Positions 405-12,653 of a stretch of 38,694 nt of DNA are shown here, one piece after another; within the stretch, counting starts at the first letter, position 1; each line of letters begins with the position of its first letter. The position numbers and the translations under genes were made by a program. Below the pieces are notes generated by a model, which worked only from the letters and a program-made list of their open reading frames with translations, made no database searches and was not told the DNA's origin. Source of the stretch: Solobacterium sp. (lineage in GTDB: Bacteria; Bacillota_I; Bacilli_A; Erysipelotrichales; Erysipelotrichaceae); the NCBI GenBank assembly GCA_017536885.1, contig JAFWCM010000231.1, forward strand, positions 1 to 38,694. The letters run 5' to 3'.

Positions 405-1403
405 TTATCTGGTTCTTCTGCGGCTGAGCATCGTTCCGCTCTGAATCCGCTTCAGCTGATTGGATGCCCTCTTCAGTATGGTGTGGATGTGCTTTTCATA
501 GAAGGCATGGCGCTGTATGCTTTCGGCCTTTGCCCGGGTGTACATGGAATCCGGACGCCGGAATGCCTTTTTGTAATCCTGTTCGATGATATAGACCAGA
601 AAGTTCTCGAAGGCATCGGGATTGAGGTATTCCTTCACCGGCGGCTCATTGATCATCTTCAGATAGAGTTCCTCATCCGCGTCGATCTTCTTTACCGCTT
701 CGAGCACGGCATCGAAATTCTCATATTCCCCGCAGTTGATGAACGCATCCGGGTTGAAGTCCATTGCCGCAAGAGGATCGCCGTAATAGATCGGGACCGC
801 CCTGCTCGCGAAGGCATCGACGATCTTTTCCGTGATATATCCCGGATAGGAGGCGTTCTCGCAGGCGATCGCGAATTTATACTTTGAAGAGAAAGCGATC
901 TTGTCCTTCACCGCCCCGCCGATATTGTTGCGGTAGCGGCCGCCGCTGGCTACCGGCTGATAGCTCTCCATTGTTTCCAGAAGCTCGGTCCGCTTGTCCT
1001 GGGCAAAGCAGTTGGATACGACAAAGGAACAGAATCCCTCTTTTGCCGCAAGGTCCTCTTTCGTGAATACCGGCCGCTCTCTGAGGGAGAGATATTCCTT
1101 CTCGTAACCGTGAAAGAGATAATACGGAAACCGGAGATAGCGGTCAGCGAACTCGAGGTGATCAAATCCCGCCGCGTAGTCACATTCGTTGAAATCCGGA
1201 GTGATGCATTCGCCGGTATAGAAGATGCGCACGCAGTCATAGTTCAGATGATCGCTTCCGAAGACCGAGTAGATCAGATACTCCGGGTCTTTGTCGGTGA
1301 CTATGACATCGTAGTGTTTTTTCAGAAGAGGAAGATAATCGTTTTTTTCTTTGTCAAAGCCCCGGTGCTGATCGGCAAAGGCAACCCGTATCGTCCGCTT
1401 CAT
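405..1403 (-). CDS. Glycosyltransferase family 10 (fucosyltransferase-like)
   Basis: The 332-residue soluble protein carries the signature of GT10 alpha-fucosyltransferases in its C-terminal half. Residues 177-210 read FAIACENASYPGYITEKI, then an Ala-Phe-Ala-Ser segment and VPIYYGDP, matching the family's donor-binding block (F-x-ENS-x-TEK and VP-x-x-x-G). Known GT10 enzymes use GDP-L-fucose, but no GDP-fucose genes (gmd, fcl) occur in this operon. The preceding genes instead make a dTDP-6-deoxyhexose. I infer that it may transfer D-fucofuranose or a related sugar to a surface glycan. The start ATGA overlaps the mutase stop by 4 nt, so translation is coupled. It is the last gene of the operon. 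Confidence 0.8.
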   Translation of the reverse strand: MKRTIRVAFADQHRGFDKEKNDYLPLLKKHYDVIVTDKDPEYLIYSVFGSDHLNYDCVRIFYTGECITPDFNECDYAAGFDHLEFADRYLRFPYYLFHGYEKEYLSLRERPVFTKEDLAAKEGFCSFVVSNCFAQDKRTELLETMESYQPVASGGRYRNNIGGAVKDKIAFSSKYKFAIACENASYPGYITEKIVDAFASRAVPIYYGDPLAAMDFNPDAFINCGEYENFDAVLEAVKKIDADEELYLKMINEPPVKEYLNPDAFENFLVYIIEQDYKKAFRRPDSMYTRAKAESIQRHAFYEKHIHTILKRASNQLKRIQSGTMLSRRRTR

Positions 1404-2572
1404 GATCTCTCCAGCAGCCCTTCGGCAAGTTCGATCGCCGCATCGGTGATCGCATCCATGTTGTAATACCGGTACTCGGCAAGACGGCCGAGCAGATGTA
1501 CGTTCTTCATCGGTTCAAGAACCTTCACATAAGCTTCATAGCTCTGTTTTGAGGCTTCGGTGAACACGGGATAATAGGGCACATTGCCCTTCTCTCTCCG
1601 TCTGTCGTAGGCATAAGGGTATTCCACCGCAATCGTCGTCTTCTCTTCCGGCGGGTTTTTCTGCATGTTCTTGTATTCGGTGATCCGCGTGAAGGGATGT
1701 TCTTCTTCGGGGGTCGGGTAATTCACCGTGGTCACCGGCTGAAACCTTCCCTCTTCCGTGCGCACTTCGAATTCGAGGCTGCGGTAGGAAAGATCGCCAT
1801 AGCGGTAATTCAGAAGATGATCGGCCAGTCCCGTATAGATCACTTCGCCTTCAAACTCCTCCCCGTCCAGCAGAACTCTGTTCTCTTCGGGAAGCACCGC
1901 AAGATGATCCATGGCTTCGGTGTTTAAGCGCACATCGATCAGAGGATGATCGAGCATCTTTTCAAACATCGCGGTAAATCCGTTTTCGGGCATCTTCTGA
2001 AAGCTGTCCTGAAAATAGCGGTCATCATAGCCGCAGAGCACCGGCACCCGCGCCGTCACGGCGGGATCGATCTCTTCGGCGGTATAGCCCCACTGCTTCA
2101 TCGTGTAGTACTTGAAGACGTGCTCGAAGATATATTCCGCAAGCTCCCGGATTTCCGGGTCACTGTGTTTTCTCAGCTCCAGAATCGGAACCTTCCTGTC
2201 CTTTCCGTACGCTTCAAGAAGCAGGGACTCAAGACGCTGTGCCCTCTCCTTTTCAAACACGGTTTCGATCGAAGTGAAGTTGAATGGAATCGGAACGAGC
2301 TTTCCTTCCACATATCCGAGCACCCTGTGCTGGTAGTCATACCAGTCCGTAAAACGGGAAAGGAATTCCGCTGCTTTTGCGGAACTGGTATGAAAGATAT
2401 GCGGTCCGTATTCATGCCGCATCACCCGGTTTTCATCGAGATAGTCATAGGCGTTGCCGGCGATGTGAGGTCTCTTTTCGAAAATCACGACGCGCTTTCC
2501 GCCCTCGGCGAGAATCCGGGCGCTGACGGCTCCGGCAAACCCCGCGCCGACAATCACAGCATCCGGTTTCAT
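1400..2572 (-). CDS. UDP-galactopyranose mutase-type flavoenzyme, possibly dTDP-fucopyranose mutase
   Basis: The 390-residue FAD protein has the N-terminal dinucleotide-binding motif VGAGFAGAVSARIL, then FEKRPHIAGNAYD, YGPHIFHT and YTMKQWG, all characteristic of the UGM family that interconverts pyranose and furanose nucleotide sugars. C-terminal landmarks FTRITEYK, YYPV and GRLAEYRYYNMD are also present. Length is normal. Classical UGM (Glf) has an Arg in its PVRF/PVRT segment; here the matching segment reads PVLCGYDDRYF with Leu. The neighbours rfbA, an SDR reductase and rfbB recall the E. coli O52 set rmlA, rmlB, fcf1, fcf2, where Fcf2 is a Glf homologue acting on dTDP-D-fucopyranose. The substrate is therefore uncertain: UDP-Gal or dTDP-Fuc. 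It overlaps the rfbB stop by one base (TAATG). Confidence 0.85.
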   Translation of the reverse strand: MKPDAVIVGAGFAGAVSARILAEGGKRVVIFEKRPHIAGNAYDYLDENRVMRHEYGPHIFHTSSAKAAEFLSRFTDWYDYQHRVLGYVEGKLVPIPFNFTSIETVFEKERAQRLESLLLEAYGKDRKVPILELRKHSDPEIRELAEYIFEHVFKYYTMKQWGYTAEEIDPAVTARVPVLCGYDDRYFQDSFQKMPENGFTAMFEKMLDHPLIDVRLNTEAMDHLAVLPEENRVLLDGEEFEGEVIYTGLADHLLNYRYGDLSYRSLEFEVRTEEGRFQPVTTVNYPTPEEEHPFTRITEYKNMQKNPPEEKTTIAVEYPYAYDRRREKGNVPYYPVFTEASKQSYEAYVKVLEPMKNVHLLGRLAEYRYYNMDAITDAAIELAEGLLERS

Positions 2573-3594
2573 TACTGACGGTCCTTATACATCTCAGCGT
2601 AGTAATTCCGGTAATCTCCGTTTACGATATGTTCCCACCAGGGACGGTTGGCAAGATACCACTCAATGGTCTTCTGAATGCCGGTCTCGAAGGTATACTC
2701 CGGTTTCCATCCGAGTTCGGTTTCGATCTTGGTCGGATCCATCGCATAGCGAAGGTCATGACCGGGCCGGTCCTTGACAAAATGGATCAGGGATTCGGGC
2801 TTGCCGAGCAGACGCAGAATCGTCTTTACGACTTCGAGGTTGGATACCTCATTGTGACCGCCGATGTTGTAGACCTCACCCACGCGGCCCCTGCGCATGA
2901 TGAGATCGATCGCCGAGCAGTGATCCGTGACATAGAGCCAGTCGCGGACATTCGCCCCTTCGCCGTACACCGGGATTGACTCATCCGCCAGCGCTCTTGA
3001 GATCACCAGCGGAATCAGCTTCTCGGGGAAGTGATACGGGCCATAGTTGTTGGAACAGCGGCTGATCGTCACCGGCAGGCCATAGGTTCTGTGATAGGCA
3101 TTCACAAGCAGATCGGCAGAGGCCTTGGAGGCGCTGTAGGGGCTGCTGGTGTGAATCGGGGTTTCTTCCGTAAAGAGCAGATCCGGCCTGTCCAGCGGCA
3201 GATCGCCGTAGACTTCGTCCGTGCTCACCTGGTGAAAGCGGCCGACATTGTATTTCCGGCAGGCATCCATCAGCGTCTGCACGCCGAGGATGTTCGTATT
3301 GAGGAAGATGCCCGGATCTTCGATCGAGCGGTCGACATGCGACTCGGCCGCGAAGTTGACCACGACATCGAACTTCTCCTTCGCAAACAGATCATCGATG
3401 AACTCCCGGTCGGTGATGTCGCCTTTGACAAAGCGGAAGTTCGGCCGGTTCATGATCGGCTCCAGGGTCTCCAGGTTTCCCGCATAGGTCAGCGCATCTA
3501 GGACGACCGTCTCATCTTCGGGATGGCGGTTTACCATCATGTGGGCAAAATTGCCGCCGATAAATCCGGCACCGCCGGTAACTAATACTTTCAT
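2572..3594 (-). CDS. rfbB: dTDP-glucose 4,6-dehydratase
   Basis: This 340-residue extended SDR enzyme converts dTDP-glucose to dTDP-4-keto-6-deoxyglucose in the cytoplasm. It shows the N-terminal NAD motif TGGAGFIGGNFAH, the STDEVYGDL segment carrying the catalytic Thr-Asp-Glu triplet, and the YSASKASAD (YxxxK) motif followed by SRCSNNYGPYHFPEKLIP. All are diagnostic for RfbB/RmlB. Length matches the family. It sits between an SDR reductase gene (4-nt overlap) and the mutase gene (1-nt overlap). rfbC and rfbD, needed for dTDP-L-rhamnose, are missing from the window, so its product probably feeds another dTDP-sugar unless those genes lie elsewhere. Confidence 0.95.
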   Translation of the reverse strand: MKVLVTGGAGFIGGNFAHMMVNRHPEDETVVLDALTYAGNLETLEPIMNRPNFRFVKGDITDREFIDDLFAKEKFDVVVNFAAESHVDRSIEDPGIFLNTNILGVQTLMDACRKYNVGRFHQVSTDEVYGDLPLDRPDLLFTEETPIHTSSPYSASKASADLLVNAYHRTYGLPVTISRCSNNYGPYHFPEKLIPLVISRALADESIPVYGEGANVRDWLYVTDHCSAIDLIMRRGRVGEVYNIGGHNEVSNLEVVKTILRLLGKPESLIHFVKDRPGHDLRYAMDPTKIETELGWKPEYTFETGIQKTIEWYLANRPWWEHIVNGDYRNYYAEMYKDRQ

Positions 3595-4483: not shown

Positions 4484-5395
4484 TCATGCCTTTCTCTTCT
4501 TTTTCAGATTGGTCTTGATATGACCTTTGGCGATATTGCGCAGATGTTCGCCATACCCGCTTTTTCCGTAGCTCTCTGCCGCTTCGAGAAGCTGTCTGTC
4601 ATCGATCCAGCCGTTGTACCAGGCGATCTCTTCCGGAACGGAGATGCGGATACCCTGAACATCCTCCACCATGCGTACATACTCGGATGCCTGCGAGAGC
4701 GATTCGATCGTACCGGTGTCGAGCCAGGCAAATCCCCTCCCGAACACCGTGATGTCAAGTTCCCCGTTGGCGAGATAGACCTTATTGAGATCGGTGATCT
4801 CATATTCGCCTCTTGCGCTCGGTTTAAGTTCCTTTGCGTATTTCACAACCCGGTTGTCATAGAAATAGAGTCCGACCACGGCGTAGTTGGATTTGGGATG
4901 TTCGGGTTTTTCCTCAAGCGAAATCACCTTTCCGTTCTCATCAAATTCGGCAACGCCGAAGCGCTCGGGGTCTTTGACATACTGGCCGAACACCGTCGCA
5001 TGCCCGGTTGTCTCGGTATTCCCTACGGTCTCCCTCAGCATCGTGGAGAACTTGTTTCCGTAAAAGATATTGTCGCCGAGAATCAGGCAGACGTCATCGC
5101 TTCCGATGAACGACTCTCCCAGCACAAACGCCTGGGCAAGGCCGTTGGGCACTTCCTGGACCTGATAGGAAAAGGATACGCCGAACTGGCTTCCGTCGCC
5201 GAGCAGACGTTCAAAATTGGGAAGGTCCTGAGGCGTAGAAATAATCAGTATTTCCCGGATCCCCGCCAGCATCAGTGTGCTCAGCGGATAATAAATCATC
5301 GGTTTGTCATAGACCGGCAGAAGCTGTTTTGAGGTTACCTTGGTCAGAGGGTACAGCCTCGTTCCGCTTCCTCCGGCAAGTATAATGCCTTTCAT
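4484..5395 (-). CDS. rfbA: Glucose-1-phosphate thymidylyltransferase
   Basis: The 303-residue enzyme makes dTDP-glucose from dTTP and glucose-1-phosphate, the entry step to dTDP-deoxysugars. The N-terminus shows the pyrophosphorylase signature [19 protein letters not shown] followed by [20 protein letters not shown]. Further on are [16 protein letters not shown] and [11 protein letters not shown], all typical of RfbA/RmlA. Length is normal apart from a short basic tail ([10 protein letters not shown]). The ribosome site AAGGAGA lies about 10 nt upstream of the start. A TAAAAT box around 5436 may give the operon its own promoter, since 67 nt separate it from the upstream lipoprotein. It is the first gene of the five-gene coupled operon. 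Confidence 0.95.
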
Positions 5396-5948: not shown

Positions 5949-8339
5949 TTACCCTTCGCTTCCTTCCGGGCCTGCCTCACCTTCCGCATCGCCGCCGACT
6001 CCTTCGGGATTGGACTCCTCCGGCTGCGGCTGCGATTCAGGATCGGGTTCGGGCTCGGGTTCCGGTTCGGGTTCCGGTTCGGGAGTCGGGGTCTCCGGCT
6101 CCGGCGTCGGAGTATCGGGAGTAGGACTCGGACCCGGTGTTTCCGCTTCCGGCGTCGGAGTCGCCGGATGCAGTGCCTCCTCTGCCTGTTCCTTCTCCTT
6201 CTGACTTTCGTAGCAGCGGCCGGTCTTATCGGACCAGACCCAGCCATAGGCTGCGCAGGTATTGCCGTCTCTTGCTTCATTCGGAGAGGACGGGGTGTTT
6301 GCGGCTTTTTCCGCCTGTTCCTTCTCTGCTTCTGTCGCATAGCAGCGATTCAGCTGATCCGACCAGATACCGTTGAAGGTGCGGCAGGCACTGGCAGATC
6401 CGATCTCGGCGAAGTTTGTCGTCGCCGAAGGGGTAGGCGTTGGCTGATCACTGGCGTCGCTCTGAGCGACCGTGACGGAAATGCTTGAGATGCCTTCAAT
6501 GCTTGAGCCGGGCGCTGCCGACTGCGAGAGGATCGTTCCGTCTGCCGCACTCGGATCGGAGACATAGGAGACGGAGAGCGGGATGCCGTGGGCCTGGCAG
6601 AAGGACTGAATACTGCCGAGCGACTTGCCGACATAGTTTCCGATTGTGGTCGGAACCGTGCTCGGGATAATCGCCTCGTTGTAGTTTTCGGCCGAGATCA
6701 CCGGTACATAGAAGTCCCAGTTCACCGACCACTGCAGCGAAGGGCTCTGGCTGATCGGGGTGGTCATGTCGATGTTTCGCTGGATTGCCTTGCGCGTATC
6801 GGCGAGGCTTCCCTGCCAGAGGCGGTAGATGTACAGCGACATCTGCAGTCCTTCATCCCAGAGGCCGCTGGAGTATCCGGTAACCCGGCCGCCCTGCAGA
6901 AGCACGACCTTTTCGACATGGTCCTGGTCATAGTAGCGGTTGGCTTTCTTCATCGCGTAGTTCATGAATCCCGTCATCTGGGACAGGGTCATGTTGGTCT
7001 GAATGTTGTCTCCCGCCGCATCCATGACATCGAGCAGCGTGTTGATGTCGCGGGTGCGCATGATCTTTCTGAGAATGGCCGCAATAACTTCCTGCTGGTG
7101 TTCCTGGCGGGCGAAGTCGCCGGTGGAGAAGAGATGACGTTCTCTCGCAAACGCGAGCGCCTGTTCGCCGTTAAGAAGCACATCCTTGCCGGCCGGCACC
7201 CATACGGTATAGGCACCGCGGTCGGAATCGGAATTCTGGCCGACAAACTCAATCGGCGAATCCACGACGATTCCGCCCAGGGCATCGACGACCTGAACAA
7301 CGCCCTTGAAGTTGGTGTCGACATAGTAGTCCACCTTTACTCCGGAGAGGTTCTCGATCGTAGCGATCAGGCAGTCCCTGCTCACCGCGTGAGCGGCGTT
7401 GAGCTTGGAGGAGTTGCCGCCATAGCAGGTGATCGGCACATAGGAATCACGGGCGAAGCTCGACATTGTCACCTTCATCGAAATCGGGTTGACGCTGCAG
7501 AGGATCATCGTATCCGACAATCCGTCGGCGTTTCCGATTAACAGAACCGTGAAGGGATCCTTGGTGAGATCCTTGTCGGAACCGGAGGTGTTTTCCACCG
7601 TGACGGTGCTTTCGAAATCGAGGATGGAGGCGGTGTTTGTGAGAAACTCCTCCATGCCGGATTCATTGCCGAAGAGATTCTTGTAGTTGGTGGGAAGAAT
7701 CGCGCATTCGATTTCCCCGTTGAACAGCGCCAGGATCAAAGAAGAGTAATCCTGATATTCGCTGTAGCTGACGTTGGTCTTTTCGCTTTCGAGCCTTGCC
7801 TTGCCGAGGTTTGCGGTCTGCGTTCCCGTCGCAAAGCCGACCGAACGGCCGTCGAGCTGCGATACATCGCTGTAGCGCTGGGTGCCGGAATCGGAATAGA
7901 CGATCAGGCTCGTGGAGACGCTTTCCTTGGTGGTGGTGCTTGTCATCTTGTCCACATTGCGGTTGACCCTGCCCAGGGCATAGGTGCCGTAGAGACCGAT
8001 GCCGAGCATCGCGGCCATCAGAACCACGCCGGTGATGAACACCGATTTGATGCGGTTGCGGATGCCGAACAGCAGTGCCATATTCATCGCCAGAAGGACG
8101 ATGATGCACAGGATGTTGACCAGTGTGAAGGTCTTTCCCGACAGATTGGCGAAGCGGGTGGAATTGAACAGTGTAACCATCATCGCGATGTTGGTGATCA
8201 CGGCAAGCACCGTAACGACGATGTTCACCTTCGACATATCGCGGTGGAAGCGGTTGGAATTGGATTTCGGTTTCGATTCCGGCCGCGGTCTCTGTTCCGG
8301 TCTTTGTCTTGAATCGGGTCTTGGCTTTTTCACAGTCAT
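5949..8339 (-). CDS. Composite LCP (LytR-CpsA-Psr) family protein with solute-binding-like, PASTA and Cys-repeat regions
   Basis: A 796-residue membrane protein. A basic, Pro-rich cytoplasmic tail (1-36) is followed by three membrane segments (about 38-58, 72-92, 98-120). Next is a region resembling a family 3 solute-binding protein (about 145-250; QLDGRSVGFATGTQTANLG and LFNGEIECAILPTNY). The LCP domain spans about 263-425 (VLLIGNADGLSDTMIL, SFARDSYVPI, VDALGGIVVDSPIEF, ALAFARERH). LCP enzymes transfer undecaprenyl-linked glycopolymers to peptidoglycan outside the cell. After it come a PASTA-like domain (about 561-628), two 29-residue Cys modules (652-680, 695-723) and a Pro-Glu tail (724-796). 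The start follows the preceding gene by 2 nt. It is much longer than ordinary LCP proteins (300-450 residues). Confidence 0.88.
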   Translation of the reverse strand: MTVKKPRPDSRQRPEQRPRPESKPKSNSNRFHRDMSKVNIVVTVLAVITNIAMMVTLFNSTRFANLSGKTFTLVNILCIIVLLAMNMALLFGIRNRIKSVFITGVVLMAAMLGIGLYGTYALGRVNRNVDKMTSTTTKESVSTSLIVYSDSGTQRYSDVSQLDGRSVGFATGTQTANLGKARLESEKTNVSYSEYQDYSSLILALFNGEIECAILPTNYKNLFGNESGMEEFLTNTASILDFESTVTVENTSGSDKDLTKDPFTVLLIGNADGLSDTMILCSVNPISMKVTMSSFARDSYVPITCYGGNSSKLNAAHAVSRDCLIATIENLSGVKVDYYVDTNFKGVVQVVDALGGIVVDSPIEFVGQNSDSDRGAYTVWVPAGKDVLLNGEQALAFARERHLFSTGDFARQEHQQEVIAAILRKIMRTRDINTLLDVMDAAGDNIQTNMTLSQMTGFMNYAMKKANRYYDQDHVEKVVLLQGGRVTGYSSGLWDEGLQMSLYIYRLWQGSLADTRKAIQRNIDMTTPISQSPSLQWSVNWDFYVPVISAENYNEAIIPSTVPTTIGNYVGKSLGSIQSFCQAHGIPLSVSYVSDPSAADGTILSQSAAPGSSIEGISSISVTVAQSDASDQPTPTPSATTNFAEIGSASACRTFNGIWSDQLNRCYATEAEKEQAEKAANTPSSPNEARDGNTCAAYGWVWSDKTGRCYESQKEKEQAEEALHPATPTPEAETPGPSPTPDTPTPEPETPTPEPEPEPEPEPEPDPESQPQPEESNPEGVGGDAEGEAGPEGSEG
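6030..6140 (-). repeat. Hexanucleotide-type repeat coding the Pro-Glu tail
   Basis: The plus strand reads repeated GGTTCC/GGTTCG/GGCTCG units that encode alternating Glu-Pro on the minus strand. Unit gain or loss by slippage would change tail length in steps of two residues without breaking the frame. Confidence 0.6.
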
Positions 8340-8341
8340 GA

Positions 8342-9181
8342 TCAGCCCTCCCCGCCCGAAGCAGGCGCTTCCGCATCTGTGCCGGTGCCGTTCTCAGCTT
8401 CCCAGGCTTCGACGCTTTCCATATCGTAGAATTCGACGATCTCAAAGCGTCCGTCGTGATCGACGACCTGGAACCGCATCCGGTGCGGGAAGTCGTTGAG
8501 ATCGACGGTCGCATTGTCGCCATAGGTCCAGGAGACCTGTACCTGATAGCACGGATAGGTGACGGGCGGATCGACGCTCATCACGGTGAAATCATCGGTG
8601 CGGAAAGTCGGCACTTCGGTGGTGATGGAGGCGACTTCCGGCAGATGTTCACGGCCGTATTGCGAGATGTAGAGATCCATGTTGGAGTAGTTGTACCAGC
8701 GGTTCCACTCTTCAAACTTCGCGTACTTCTCCGCGTAGATATACTGGAGTCCGCCGACTTCATAGTTTCCGTCCTTGTTCGTCCAGGTAAAATAATCCGT
8801 CACGAAATTGTAAACCACGGCTTCCGCCTTCTCTTCGGGAGTTCCCGCACTCACCGAGTCGGAGAGTTTCTGGAAATACTCCTTGGAGATTTCTGTCGGG
8901 TTGTTTCCGATTTCATACAGATTGTTCTTCAGTGATTTTCCGGTACTGGTTGTCGTCATGGAATCTTCACTTCCCTGATTGTCTACCGTACCGGCTTTGG
9001 CGGCGTTTACCGTATTGATGCCGAGGGCAACCACCATGACTGCCGAAATGCCGACAAGCACGGCGGAAAGGATCGTATTGATCTTCCGGGATTTCTGCCT
9101 GGCGGGATCCGGTTTTCTTTTCCTTTTGACACTCTTTCCGGAAGAGGAAGGCTGACGGTTCTCATTGATATTCTGGGACAT
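8342..9181 (-). CDS. One-pass membrane protein of unknown function in the LCP operon
   Basis: 279 residues: a basic, Ser/Lys-rich cytoplasmic tail (1-33), one membrane segment (about 35-58, NTILSAVLVGISAVMVVALG) and an extracytoplasmic domain. The outer domain has an alpha-plus-beta pattern rich in Trp and Tyr (VVYNFVTDYFTW, WNRWYNYSNMDLY, YQVQVSWTYGDN, FEIVEFYDMESVEAWE), compatible with an NTF2-like fold. I do not recognise a named family, so function is unassigned. It lies between a GtrB-like glycosyltransferase and the LCP protein, with 2 nt to the latter. A role in the same envelope polymer pathway is likely but inferred from context. The start has an AAGGAGG ribosome site. The layout resembles that of the product of 12638-13840. 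Confidence 0.75.
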   Translation of the reverse strand: MSQNINENRQPSSSGKSVKRKRKPDPARQKSRKINTILSAVLVGISAVMVVALGINTVNAAKAGTVDNQGSEDSMTTTSTGKSLKNNLYEIGNNPTEISKEYFQKLSDSVSAGTPEEKAEAVVYNFVTDYFTWTNKDGNYEVGGLQYIYAEKYAKFEEWNRWYNYSNMDLYISQYGREHLPEVASITTEVPTFRTDDFTVMSVDPPVTYPCYQVQVSWTYGDNATVDLNDFPHRMRFQVVDHDGRFEIVEFYDMESVEAWEAENGTGTDAEAPASGGEG

Positions 9182-9219: not shown

Positions 9220-10146
9220 TTATTCATAAAACTTTCTGATGATGTAATTCGGACGGCCTCTGACTTCGTCGTAGGTCTTGGCGAGATACTCGCCGAGGAT
9301 TCCGGTGGACAGAAGGATGATTCCGCCCATGAACAGAACCACGGCGATGATCAGCACGGTGCTGCTCAGCGCTTTTCCAAGAAGGGAAAGCACCAGCAGG
9401 ACCAGAAGGAACACAAGCATGATCACGGTGAGGAATCCCCCCACCCAGCTGATGATCCACAGCGGCATATCGGTGTATTCGATAATGCCGTCCAATGCAT
9501 AGCGAAGCAGCTTGACGAACGACCATTTGGTTTCTCCGGCCACGCGCTTGATATTTTCGTATTCGAGATATTCGCACTTAAAGCCGACCCACACAAACAG
9601 CCCCTTGGAAAAACGCCCGTACTCTTTCAGAGAAAGGATGGCATCGACCACCTGACGCTTCATGAGCCGGAAGTCACGGGCACCGTCCACGATCTCCACT
9701 TCGGTGAAGCGGTTGATCAGCTTATAAAACTTCCTGGCAAACCAGGAGCGGATCTTCGGTTCTCCCTTGCGGCTGACCCGGCGGGTTCCCACCACATCGT
9801 TGCCGTTTTTCTCCATGACTTCAAACATCTTCGGAATATATTCGGGCGGATCCTGAAGATCGGCATCCATGACCGTGACATAGTCCCCCTTCGCCGCTCT
9901 GAGTCCCGCAAGCAGCGCCCCTTCCTTGCCGAAGTTGCGCGAAAAATCGATGACTCTGACAACGCCGGGATGCGCCTTGTAGAGGGCCAGCATCTTTTCC
10001 AGAGTGGAATCCTTCGAGCCGTCATTCACAAAAATAACTTCATATTCCAGGTCCATCTGATCTACGACTTTCGTTAAGGACGCGTAGAACAGATCGACCG
10101 TTTCTTCTTCGTTGTAGCACGGAACTACAATAGATAAAAGCGACAT
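9220..10146 (-). CDS. Family 2 glycosyltransferase, GtrB/CsbB/DPM1-like
   Basis: A membrane glycosyltransferase of about 308 residues. The N-terminal GT-A domain shows SIVVPCYNEEETVDLFY, FVNDGSKDST, DADLQDPPEYIP (DxD) and WVGFKCEYLEY. Two membrane segments close the protein (about 230-255 and 265-290), then EYLAKTYDEVRGRPNYII. This is the GtrB/CsbB architecture, which links a hexose or HexNAc to undecaprenyl phosphate inside the cell for later transfer outside. The start at 10146 is fixed by GGAGG six nucleotides upstream; an earlier ATG at 10167 overlaps the promoter. It is the first gene of a three-gene operon with the LCP protein. The donor sugar cannot be told from sequence. Confidence 0.88.
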   Translation of the reverse strand: MSLLSIVVPCYNEEETVDLFYASLTKVVDQMDLEYEVIFVNDGSKDSTLEKMLALYKAHPGVVRVIDFSRNFGKEGALLAGLRAAKGDYVTVMDADLQDPPEYIPKMFEVMEKNGNDVVGTRRVSRKGEPKIRSWFARKFYKLINRFTEVEIVDGARDFRLMKRQVVDAILSLKEYGRFSKGLFVWVGFKCEYLEYENIKRVAGETKWSFVKLLRYALDGIIEYTDMPLWIISWVGGFLTVIMLVFLLVLLVLSLLGKALSSTVLIIAVVLFMGGIILLSTGILGEYLAKTYDEVRGRPNYIIRKFYE

Positions 10147-10169
10147 TGATTTCCTCCGAAAACGCATTC

Positions 10170-11612: not shown

Positions 11613-12653
11613 ATGACGGATGAAAAAAGAAAAAAGAAGAACGGCAGACGGAAGAAAAAACGTCTGAAGGCCGGGATCCGGCGAACGTTCCGACAGACCT
11701 TACTGCTTCTGATGACCATGATTCTGACCATCGGACTGTTTTCGTATATCGCGCTTCTGATCGTCCTGAAAGGACCGAGCCCCACCTTCTCGAACATGGT
11801 GGTCTCCACGATGTGGGAAACCCGGCGCGGCAAGGCGATTGTAAACGCGATGTTCACCGAAGATGAAATCGAGGCAATCCTTTCCAAGAACGCCGTGGAC
11901 AACACCTCCACCGTCGCCAGTCACACCGAGGATGACTACGGGGAATTCTCGATTCCCGCCTCGGAAAAAGACCGTGTCGATATCGTGGACGTCTCCGGCG
12001 GCACCTTCAAGGGCAAGCTCATGATCGTCCGCGATCCCTCCCGCGTCAAGCTCGGTGTCAACTCTCTGATGCCCGGCGGCAACACCGGCTATTCCGTGCA
12101 GGATTATGTGGATGAGCTCGGCGGCCTCGGCGGAATCAACGGCGGCGGCTTTGACGATCCCAACGGCAAGGGCGACGGTTCCATTCCTCAGGGCATCGTC
12201 ATCCACGATTCGAAGATCGTCTTCGGAAGTCCTTCCGACTACGAATGCCTGATCGGCTTCAACACCGCCCACCATCTGATCGTCGGAAATATGACCGGCC
12301 AGGATGCGCTCGACTGGGGCATCACCGATGCGGTGACCTTCGGTCCGGTGCTCGTCTACGACGGCCATGCCTGTGCGATTACCGGCACCGGCGGCGGTCT
12401 GAACCCGCGCACGATCATCGGCCAGAGAAGCGACGGCGCCGTGCTGCTTCTCGTCATCGACGGCCGTCAGACCTCTTCCCTTGGGGCATCCTATGAAGAC
12501 TGCATCGACATCATGCTCGAAAACAATGCGGTCGTCGCGGCGAATCTTGACGGAGGATCTTCCTCGGTCATGTACTATAACGGAAAAATCATCAACAATG
12601 TTGTTTCAATGAACGGAGAGCGTCTGGTACCAACCGCATGGGTCGTCAAATAG
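11613..12653 (+). CDS. NAGPA-type phosphodiester glycosidase family protein, membrane anchored
   Basis: 346 residues: a very basic cytoplasmic tail (1-27), one membrane segment (about 28-52) and an extracytoplasmic domain. The C-terminal half has the phosphodiester glycosidase (NAGPA, DUF2233) signature: GGINGGGFDDP, SIPQGIVIHDSKIV, DAVTFGPVLVYDG, NPRTIIGQRSDGAVLLLVIDG and NLDGGSSSVMYYNGKIIN. Family members cleave sugar-phosphodiester bonds or act in exopolysaccharide metabolism outside the cell, so a role in surface glycopolymer modification is likely. The ribosome site is weak (TGAGA, about 8 nt upstream). The 3' end overlaps the next gene by 16 nt, indicating coupled expression. Confidence 0.9.
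   Translation: MTDEKRKKKNGRRKKKRLKAGIRRTFRQTLLLLMTMILTIGLFSYIALLIVLKGPSPTFSNMVVSTMWETRRGKAIVNAMFTEDEIEAILSKNAVDNTSTVASHTEDDYGEFSIPASEKDRVDIVDVSGGTFKGKLMIVRDPSRVKLGVNSLMPGGNTGYSVQDYVDELGGLGGINGGGFDDPNGKGDGSIPQGIVIHDSKIVFGSPSDYECLIGFNTAHHLIVGNMTGQDALDWGITDAVTFGPVLVYDGHACAITGTGGGLNPRTIIGQRSDGAVLLLVIDGRQTSSLGASYEDCIDIMLENNAVVAANLDGGSSSVMYYNGKIINNVVSMNGERLVPTAWVVK

Follow-up and report, generated by a model that had tools for sequence, protein, structure and literature searches.

A CpsA/Cps2A-type LCP protein with a PASTA and cysteine-module tail at a putative glycopolymer locus of a rumen Erysipelotrichaceae bacterium

The gene described here bears on what the accessory domain does in CpsA-type enzymes. 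It lies in a 38,694-nucleotide stretch of DNA (the window) from a rumen bacterium, a Solobacterium-like member of the Erysipelotrichaceae; among named genomes, those of Solobacterium sp. from roe deer and reindeer match it best. An initial annotation had described the gene product as an LCP ligase fused to a solute-binding-like sensor. Sequence comparisons and structure models make it likely that the gene encodes an LCP phosphotransferase of CpsA/Cps2A type (cluster F3), which would carry a glycopolymer from its Und-PP carrier to peptidoglycan, with putative roles for its extra parts as set out below.

A Cps2A-like LCP protein

The reading frame is real, and its strand, which the initial annotation left out, is minus, with an ATG at 8339 and a stop at 5949 (Table 1). 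On the plus strand, 5949-8339 is interrupted by stops. The start codon assigned is the first ATG past the stop of the upstream gene, and 18 further codons upstream are also open. Among 50 candidate stretches, none was a viral relative. An AlphaFold2 model of the protein, built from 49 sequences (mean pLDDT 81.6), contains the three N-terminal membrane helices that had been proposed, a trait of cluster F3 (PMC2632651). The best NCBIfam model is LCP_trans_Cps2A (residues 34-522, 160.7 bits). Since this score lies below the curated cut-off of 650 for the CpsA equivalog NF051849, the protein is of the same type as streptococcal CpsA rather than the equivalog itself.

Table 1. Features of the LCP protein and its locus (window coordinates unless a locus is named).
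Feature	Coordinates	Strand	Remark
LCP protein, CpsA/Cps2A (cluster F3) type, 796 aa, with PASTA and Cys-module tail	5949..8339	minus	
Three predicted transmembrane helices, residues 36-60, 68-95, 98-132	7944..8234	minus	AlphaFold2 model
Accessory domain, residues 136-249, lobe 2 of type II solute-binding fold	7593..7934	minus	corresponds to Cps2A 110-215
LCP phosphotransferase domain, residues 263-524	6768..7553	minus	
PASTA domain, residues 565-625	6465..6647	minus	
Cys module 1, residues 649-681	6297..6395	minus	C652 and C666
Cys module 2, residues 692-722	6174..6266	minus	C695 and C709
Disordered Pro/Glu-rich tail, residues 725-796	5952..6167	minus	
Unnamed partner, 279 aa	8342..9181	minus	apparently a single membrane helix followed by an extracytoplasmic domain
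GtrB/CsbB/PgfS-like polyprenyl-phosphate glycosyltransferase	9220..10167	minus	next but one gene, position conserved
rmlA, glucose-1-phosphate thymidylyltransferase	4484..5395	minus	
Sugar-nucleotide 4,6-dehydratase family protein	2572..3594	minus	rmlB-like place in locus
glf, UDP-galactopyranose mutase	1400..2572	minus	
Partner-GT4 fusions, sister family	L115:3876-5648, L116:4998-6737, L117:3849-5555, L118:4983-6683		

The LCP domain proposed earlier scores far above the Pfam cut-off (PF03816, residues 275-426, E 1.6e-37, 129.4 bits versus 24.6). In a phmmer search of PDB sequences, Cps2A aligned over residues 131-520, and it superposes on the model over residues 140-527 (Z 32.6, 356 residues, 28% identity). 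Residues R297, D276, R399, D408, R411 and Q415, as read from the alignments, correspond to Cps2A R267, D246, R362, D371, R374 and Q378, active-site residues whose roles have been described (PMC7831098). Across 49 relatives, these six catalytic positions vary little or not at all. The LCP-type ligase suggested at the outset is supported, and it would attach a glycopolymer.

The metal site differs from that of Cps2A. The position of D234, the first Mg-binding Asp of Cps2A, is A271 here, with D272 adjacent, and the loop ahead of D276 is about seven residues shorter. The shortened loop, GNADGLSD (residues 269-276, window 7514-7537, minus strand), is clade-specific. Asp occupies position 271 in 42/49 wider relatives, and all of the 16 nearest relatives have D272. 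The alanine and the shortened loop count against an enzymatic reading. They would fit a regulatory, non-catalytic LCP, a poor enzyme with an altered Mg site that senses peptidoglycan through its PASTA domain and controls the amount of polymer. Retention of the six other catalytic positions and the invariance of D272 within the clade argue against this alternative, to which we give only a very slight chance. We read A271/D272 as a shifted Mg ligand, which need not imply a dead enzyme.

A single solute-binding lobe ahead of the LCP domain

Between helix 3 and the LCP domain, the AlphaFold2 model contains an alpha/beta domain of ~114 residues. Taken singly, its sequence has zero Pfam matches and matches solute-binding proteins weakly (E 0.0025-0.004), and an alignment was needed to reveal the relation. 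A profile of 58 sequences matched Cps2A (E 2.9e-29), the substrate-binding domains of GlnPQ (E 6.6e-11) and AncQR (E 1.5e-9), the amino-acid binding proteins matching best in the stretch equivalent to lobe 2. A separate model of the domain (pLDDT 86.8, pTM 0.77) superposes on Cps2A 110-215 with a Z of 13.8; it also fits lobe 2 of PtxB, GlnPQ SBD1 (114-209) and the glutamate/aspartate-binding protein DEBP (Z about 12-14), and the Foldseek result is concordant. Absence of a solute-binding fold had been named in advance as grounds for dropping the initial annotation; the fold is present, and the solute-binding-like region, weak as a single sequence, is strong as a profile.

The domain is nonetheless the standard accessory domain of CpsA/Cps2A-type enzymes, and a special fusion to a ligand sensor is not supported. 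A Cps2A-kind extracellular domain ahead of the LCP domain marks cluster F3, and the profile match and superposition on Cps2A place the protein there. Such an enzyme is already known: in 2008 Hubscher et al. described cluster F3 as CpsA-like proteins with three helices and a region that overlaps the periplasmic-binding-protein-like II superfamily (PMC2632651). Across the 58 members, Pfam's solute-binding families NMT1 and Phosphonate-bd match 33/58 and 31/58, and its DNA_PPF model matches 4/58. That the domain is one solute-binding lobe, with a homologue in Cps2A, makes the older DNA-processivity-factor label less likely.

Does the domain bind a ligand? The initial annotation took it for a family 3 solute-binding-like sensor of a small molecule; on this reading, the ligand would gate LCP activity. 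The fold is indeed that of solute-binding proteins, near amino-acid and phosphonate binders, and single-domain solute-binding proteins near chemoreceptor genes are known (PMC10805632). Foldseek matches also include MltF, a wall lytic enzyme with a solute-binding-like domain; we discounted MltF and the other two-lobed matches as signs of sensing, as they match the lobe only. Type II solute-binding proteins have two lobes and a ligand cleft, whereas here there is one lobe. The family 3 assignment thus survives as the fold of lobe 2 and fails for the two-lobed cleft. The main ligand contacts of amino-acid binders sit in lobe 1, the one that is missing.

Conservation points the same way. Across 49 relatives, the loop that contacts ligand in solute-binding proteins, here residues 171-176, belongs to the least conserved segments (0.9-1.8 bits, mostly about 1, versus a domain mean of 1.63 bits and about 4 for catalytic residues), and no conserved ligand-binding residues are seen across this set. 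Among the nearest 28 relatives the loop reaches about 1.1-3.5 bits, with T173 at 3.5, and C212, P216 and Y219 are highly conserved; close relatives show fair conservation at G172 and T173, in the loop that follows strand 2, and at P216, N218 and Y219, at the end of strand 4. These patterns would be consistent with a possible clade-specific surface but do not support a general ligand site. A flytrap sensor is improbable, given that lobe 1 is missing and that the family as a whole does not conserve the ligand loop. The protein also has no attached signalling domain. Overall, we regard ligand sensing as quite unlikely.

A recurrent, fast-changing C-terminal tail

The less usual part of the protein is its C-terminal half, not the solute-binding-like region. 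The PASTA domain that had been suggested there is confirmed by Pfam (PF03793, 28.5 bits versus a cut-off of 23.2), and PASTA-like strands and a helix are modelled at residues 574-625. Two Cys repeats follow, as claimed, and they resemble each other far beyond chance, with 0/2000 shuffles reaching their similarity score. Both are helix-hairpin-helix units in the AlphaFold2 model, and Pfam assigned neither to any family with significance. The Pro-Glu tail was likewise correctly described and is disordered in the model.

The architecture recurs in related genomes, where a search had been proposed. PASTA is present in 28/133 fetched LCP ORFs, with one to three copies each, a count that omits one marginal partial match in L031. 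An LCP-PASTA profile had strong matches in 74/247 sampled genomes of the class, and by our count of the matches listed it extends through the PASTA columns in 36/247, from three families. Over a sample of the phylum, strong matches were found in 39/245 genomes, every one in the same class. LCPs of the sister family mostly stop ahead of the PASTA columns, so PASTA is dispensable for LCP function there. A literature search, from which many journals were missing, found no paper joining LCP and PASTA.

Beyond PASTA, the tails appear to turn over fast between species, even close ones. Tails are sharply different even within the genus: those of the window protein, L004, L006 and L007 carry PASTA and two Cys/Trp modules, and those of other species hold strings of CxxNGGTWDGxxC units, EGF-like repeats, CWDGS repeats, SGSEG or threonine-rich runs, or Pro/Glu alone. 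The Cys module is found at E 0.001 in just 5/60 genomes of the genus. Within the window's own genome, it is also present in a GDSL-type hydrolase whose tail is Pro-rich (L137:1297-2721, minus strand) and four times in a fragment (L136:3-884, plus strand) beside a small GtrA-like membrane protein.

Two further features of the tails were seen. In L010, L011, L014, L015 and L040, EGF-like segments stand with many short two-Cys repeats, L040 having up to 28 Cys. The C-termini of the window protein and of several relatives are in many cases Gly/Glu-rich, ending in ...EG or ...GGE.

Locus, partner and proposed function

The initial annotation also took a GtrB-like gene to suggest that the polymer is glycosylated in the same pathway. 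A glycopolymer locus is supported, with genes for a GtrB-like protein and YfhO in the window. CsbB/GtrB-like enzymes together with YfhO constitute a known system for Und-P-sugar decoration (PMC7389260). The GtrB-like gene is present near the LCP gene, but it is not adjacent, as had been stated; the gene at 8342-9181 lies in between. The order gtrB, partner, LCP, rmlA, epimerase, dehydratase, glf is kept in L035, L037 (Anaerorhabdus furcosa) and L038 (Holdemania). The wider window also encodes a second GT2, an aldose epimerase and an NAGPA-type phosphodiester glycosidase (11613-12653, plus strand), the last of these near the ligase locus. NAGPA-type enzymes act on sugar-1-phosphodiesters, which we infer to be the kind of bond that an LCP would form.

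The intervening gene encodes the most constant neighbour of the LCP protein, which is retained also in loci whose gtrB lies elsewhere than next to it. This partner gene adjoins an LCP gene in many fetched loci and occurs twice in tandem in L133. Its family is present in 74/296 genomes of the class and in 35 of the 36 whose LCP match extends through the PASTA columns. The partner gene ends 2 nt ahead of the LCP start codon, which is preceded by a GGGGAGGG stretch, and this makes translational coupling of the two genes probable. The partner family gave no convincing match among PDB sequences or in Pfam; our impression is of a possible NTF2-like fold. In sister family f2, the partner is fused behind a GT4 TagO/WecA-type front (PF00953, E 1e-40 to 1e-44 in the four proteins tested), as the C-terminal part of proteins about 570-600 aa long. 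In the genome of the window, PF00953 is encoded by two separate genes.

In the mechanism that we propose, the LCP domain would move a glycopolymer from its undecaprenyl-pyrophosphate carrier onto peptidoglycan. The rmlA, epimerase, dehydratase and glf genes, together with the GtrB-like gene and YfhO, point to a polymer of rhamnose/galactofuranose type, which may be decorated by the Und-P-sugar system. The accessory domain would serve as a spacer or docking surface, not as a Venus-flytrap sensor. PASTA may capture lipid II or nascent, uncrosslinked peptidoglycan and so deliver the acceptor to the active site of the LCP domain. Such acceptor capture is plausible: PASTA of PknB binds muropeptides and lipid II (PMC3145798, PMC6428115), and the acceptor of S. 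aureus LCP enzymes is uncrosslinked peptidoglycan (PMC7831098). A single PASTA, however, need not bind peptidoglycan. The disulfide-type Cys modules and the Pro/Glu tail would extend into the wall and diverge fast, and the apparently coupled partner may tie the ligase to its Und-PP-linked donor or the machinery that makes it.

A compatible alternative, which we put at somewhat below an even chance, differs in the purpose of the extra parts. Here, the accessory domain would dock other proteins, such as the partner or the polymerase, and the tail would be a variable region exposed at the surface, where phage, host or protozoa select on it. The constancy of the partner, the swapping of tail modules even between close species and the recurrence of the Cys module in other exported proteins of the genome all speak for it; tail turnover could equally be neutral. 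A broader and more speculative extension of the phosphotransferase mechanism concerns anaerobic gut Bacilli, in which the ligase would hold its acceptor through PASTA, a complex with the partner would tie LCP to the TagO/WecA-type first enzyme, coupling initiation and ligation, and the tail would be an exchangeable surface cassette. We consider this rather doubtful as a whole.

What is less usual here is a recurrent, fast-changing tail with PASTA and an unnamed partner that is probably coupled. As an LCP enzyme that carries PASTA itself, the protein offers a direct test case for the choice of peptidoglycan acceptor by such enzymes. The partner, separate beside LCP in some families and fused to a TagO/WecA-type enzyme in another, is a concrete candidate for a component that is still missing from the picture of how wall polymers are attached.

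Among known systems, TagT/U/V, LytR and LcpA have the LCP domain in common with this protein (Z 22-26), and their structures cover only that part (from about residue 250 in most matches), not the accessory domain. Lobe 2 of type II solute-binding proteins (GlnPQ SBD1, PtxB, DEBP) has the same fold over about 100 residues at an rmsd of about 2, but the accessory domain is only half of their fold and its ligand residues are unconserved. In PknB/PrkC kinases, PASTA sits on the kinase, whereas here one copy sits on an LCP ligase, with up to three in LCP relatives. The closest counterparts are Cps2A/CpsA/Wzg of cluster F3 (S. pneumoniae Cps2A, PDB 2xxp, 3tfl), which have the same three helices, accessory domain and LCP domain, encoded in both cases in a polysaccharide locus. 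The scanned ORFs of the window include no noted CpsBCD phosphoregulatory genes, a difference from the Cps2A system. Relative to Cps2A itself, the window protein has the altered metal site described above and adds PASTA, the Cys modules and the Pro/Glu tail.
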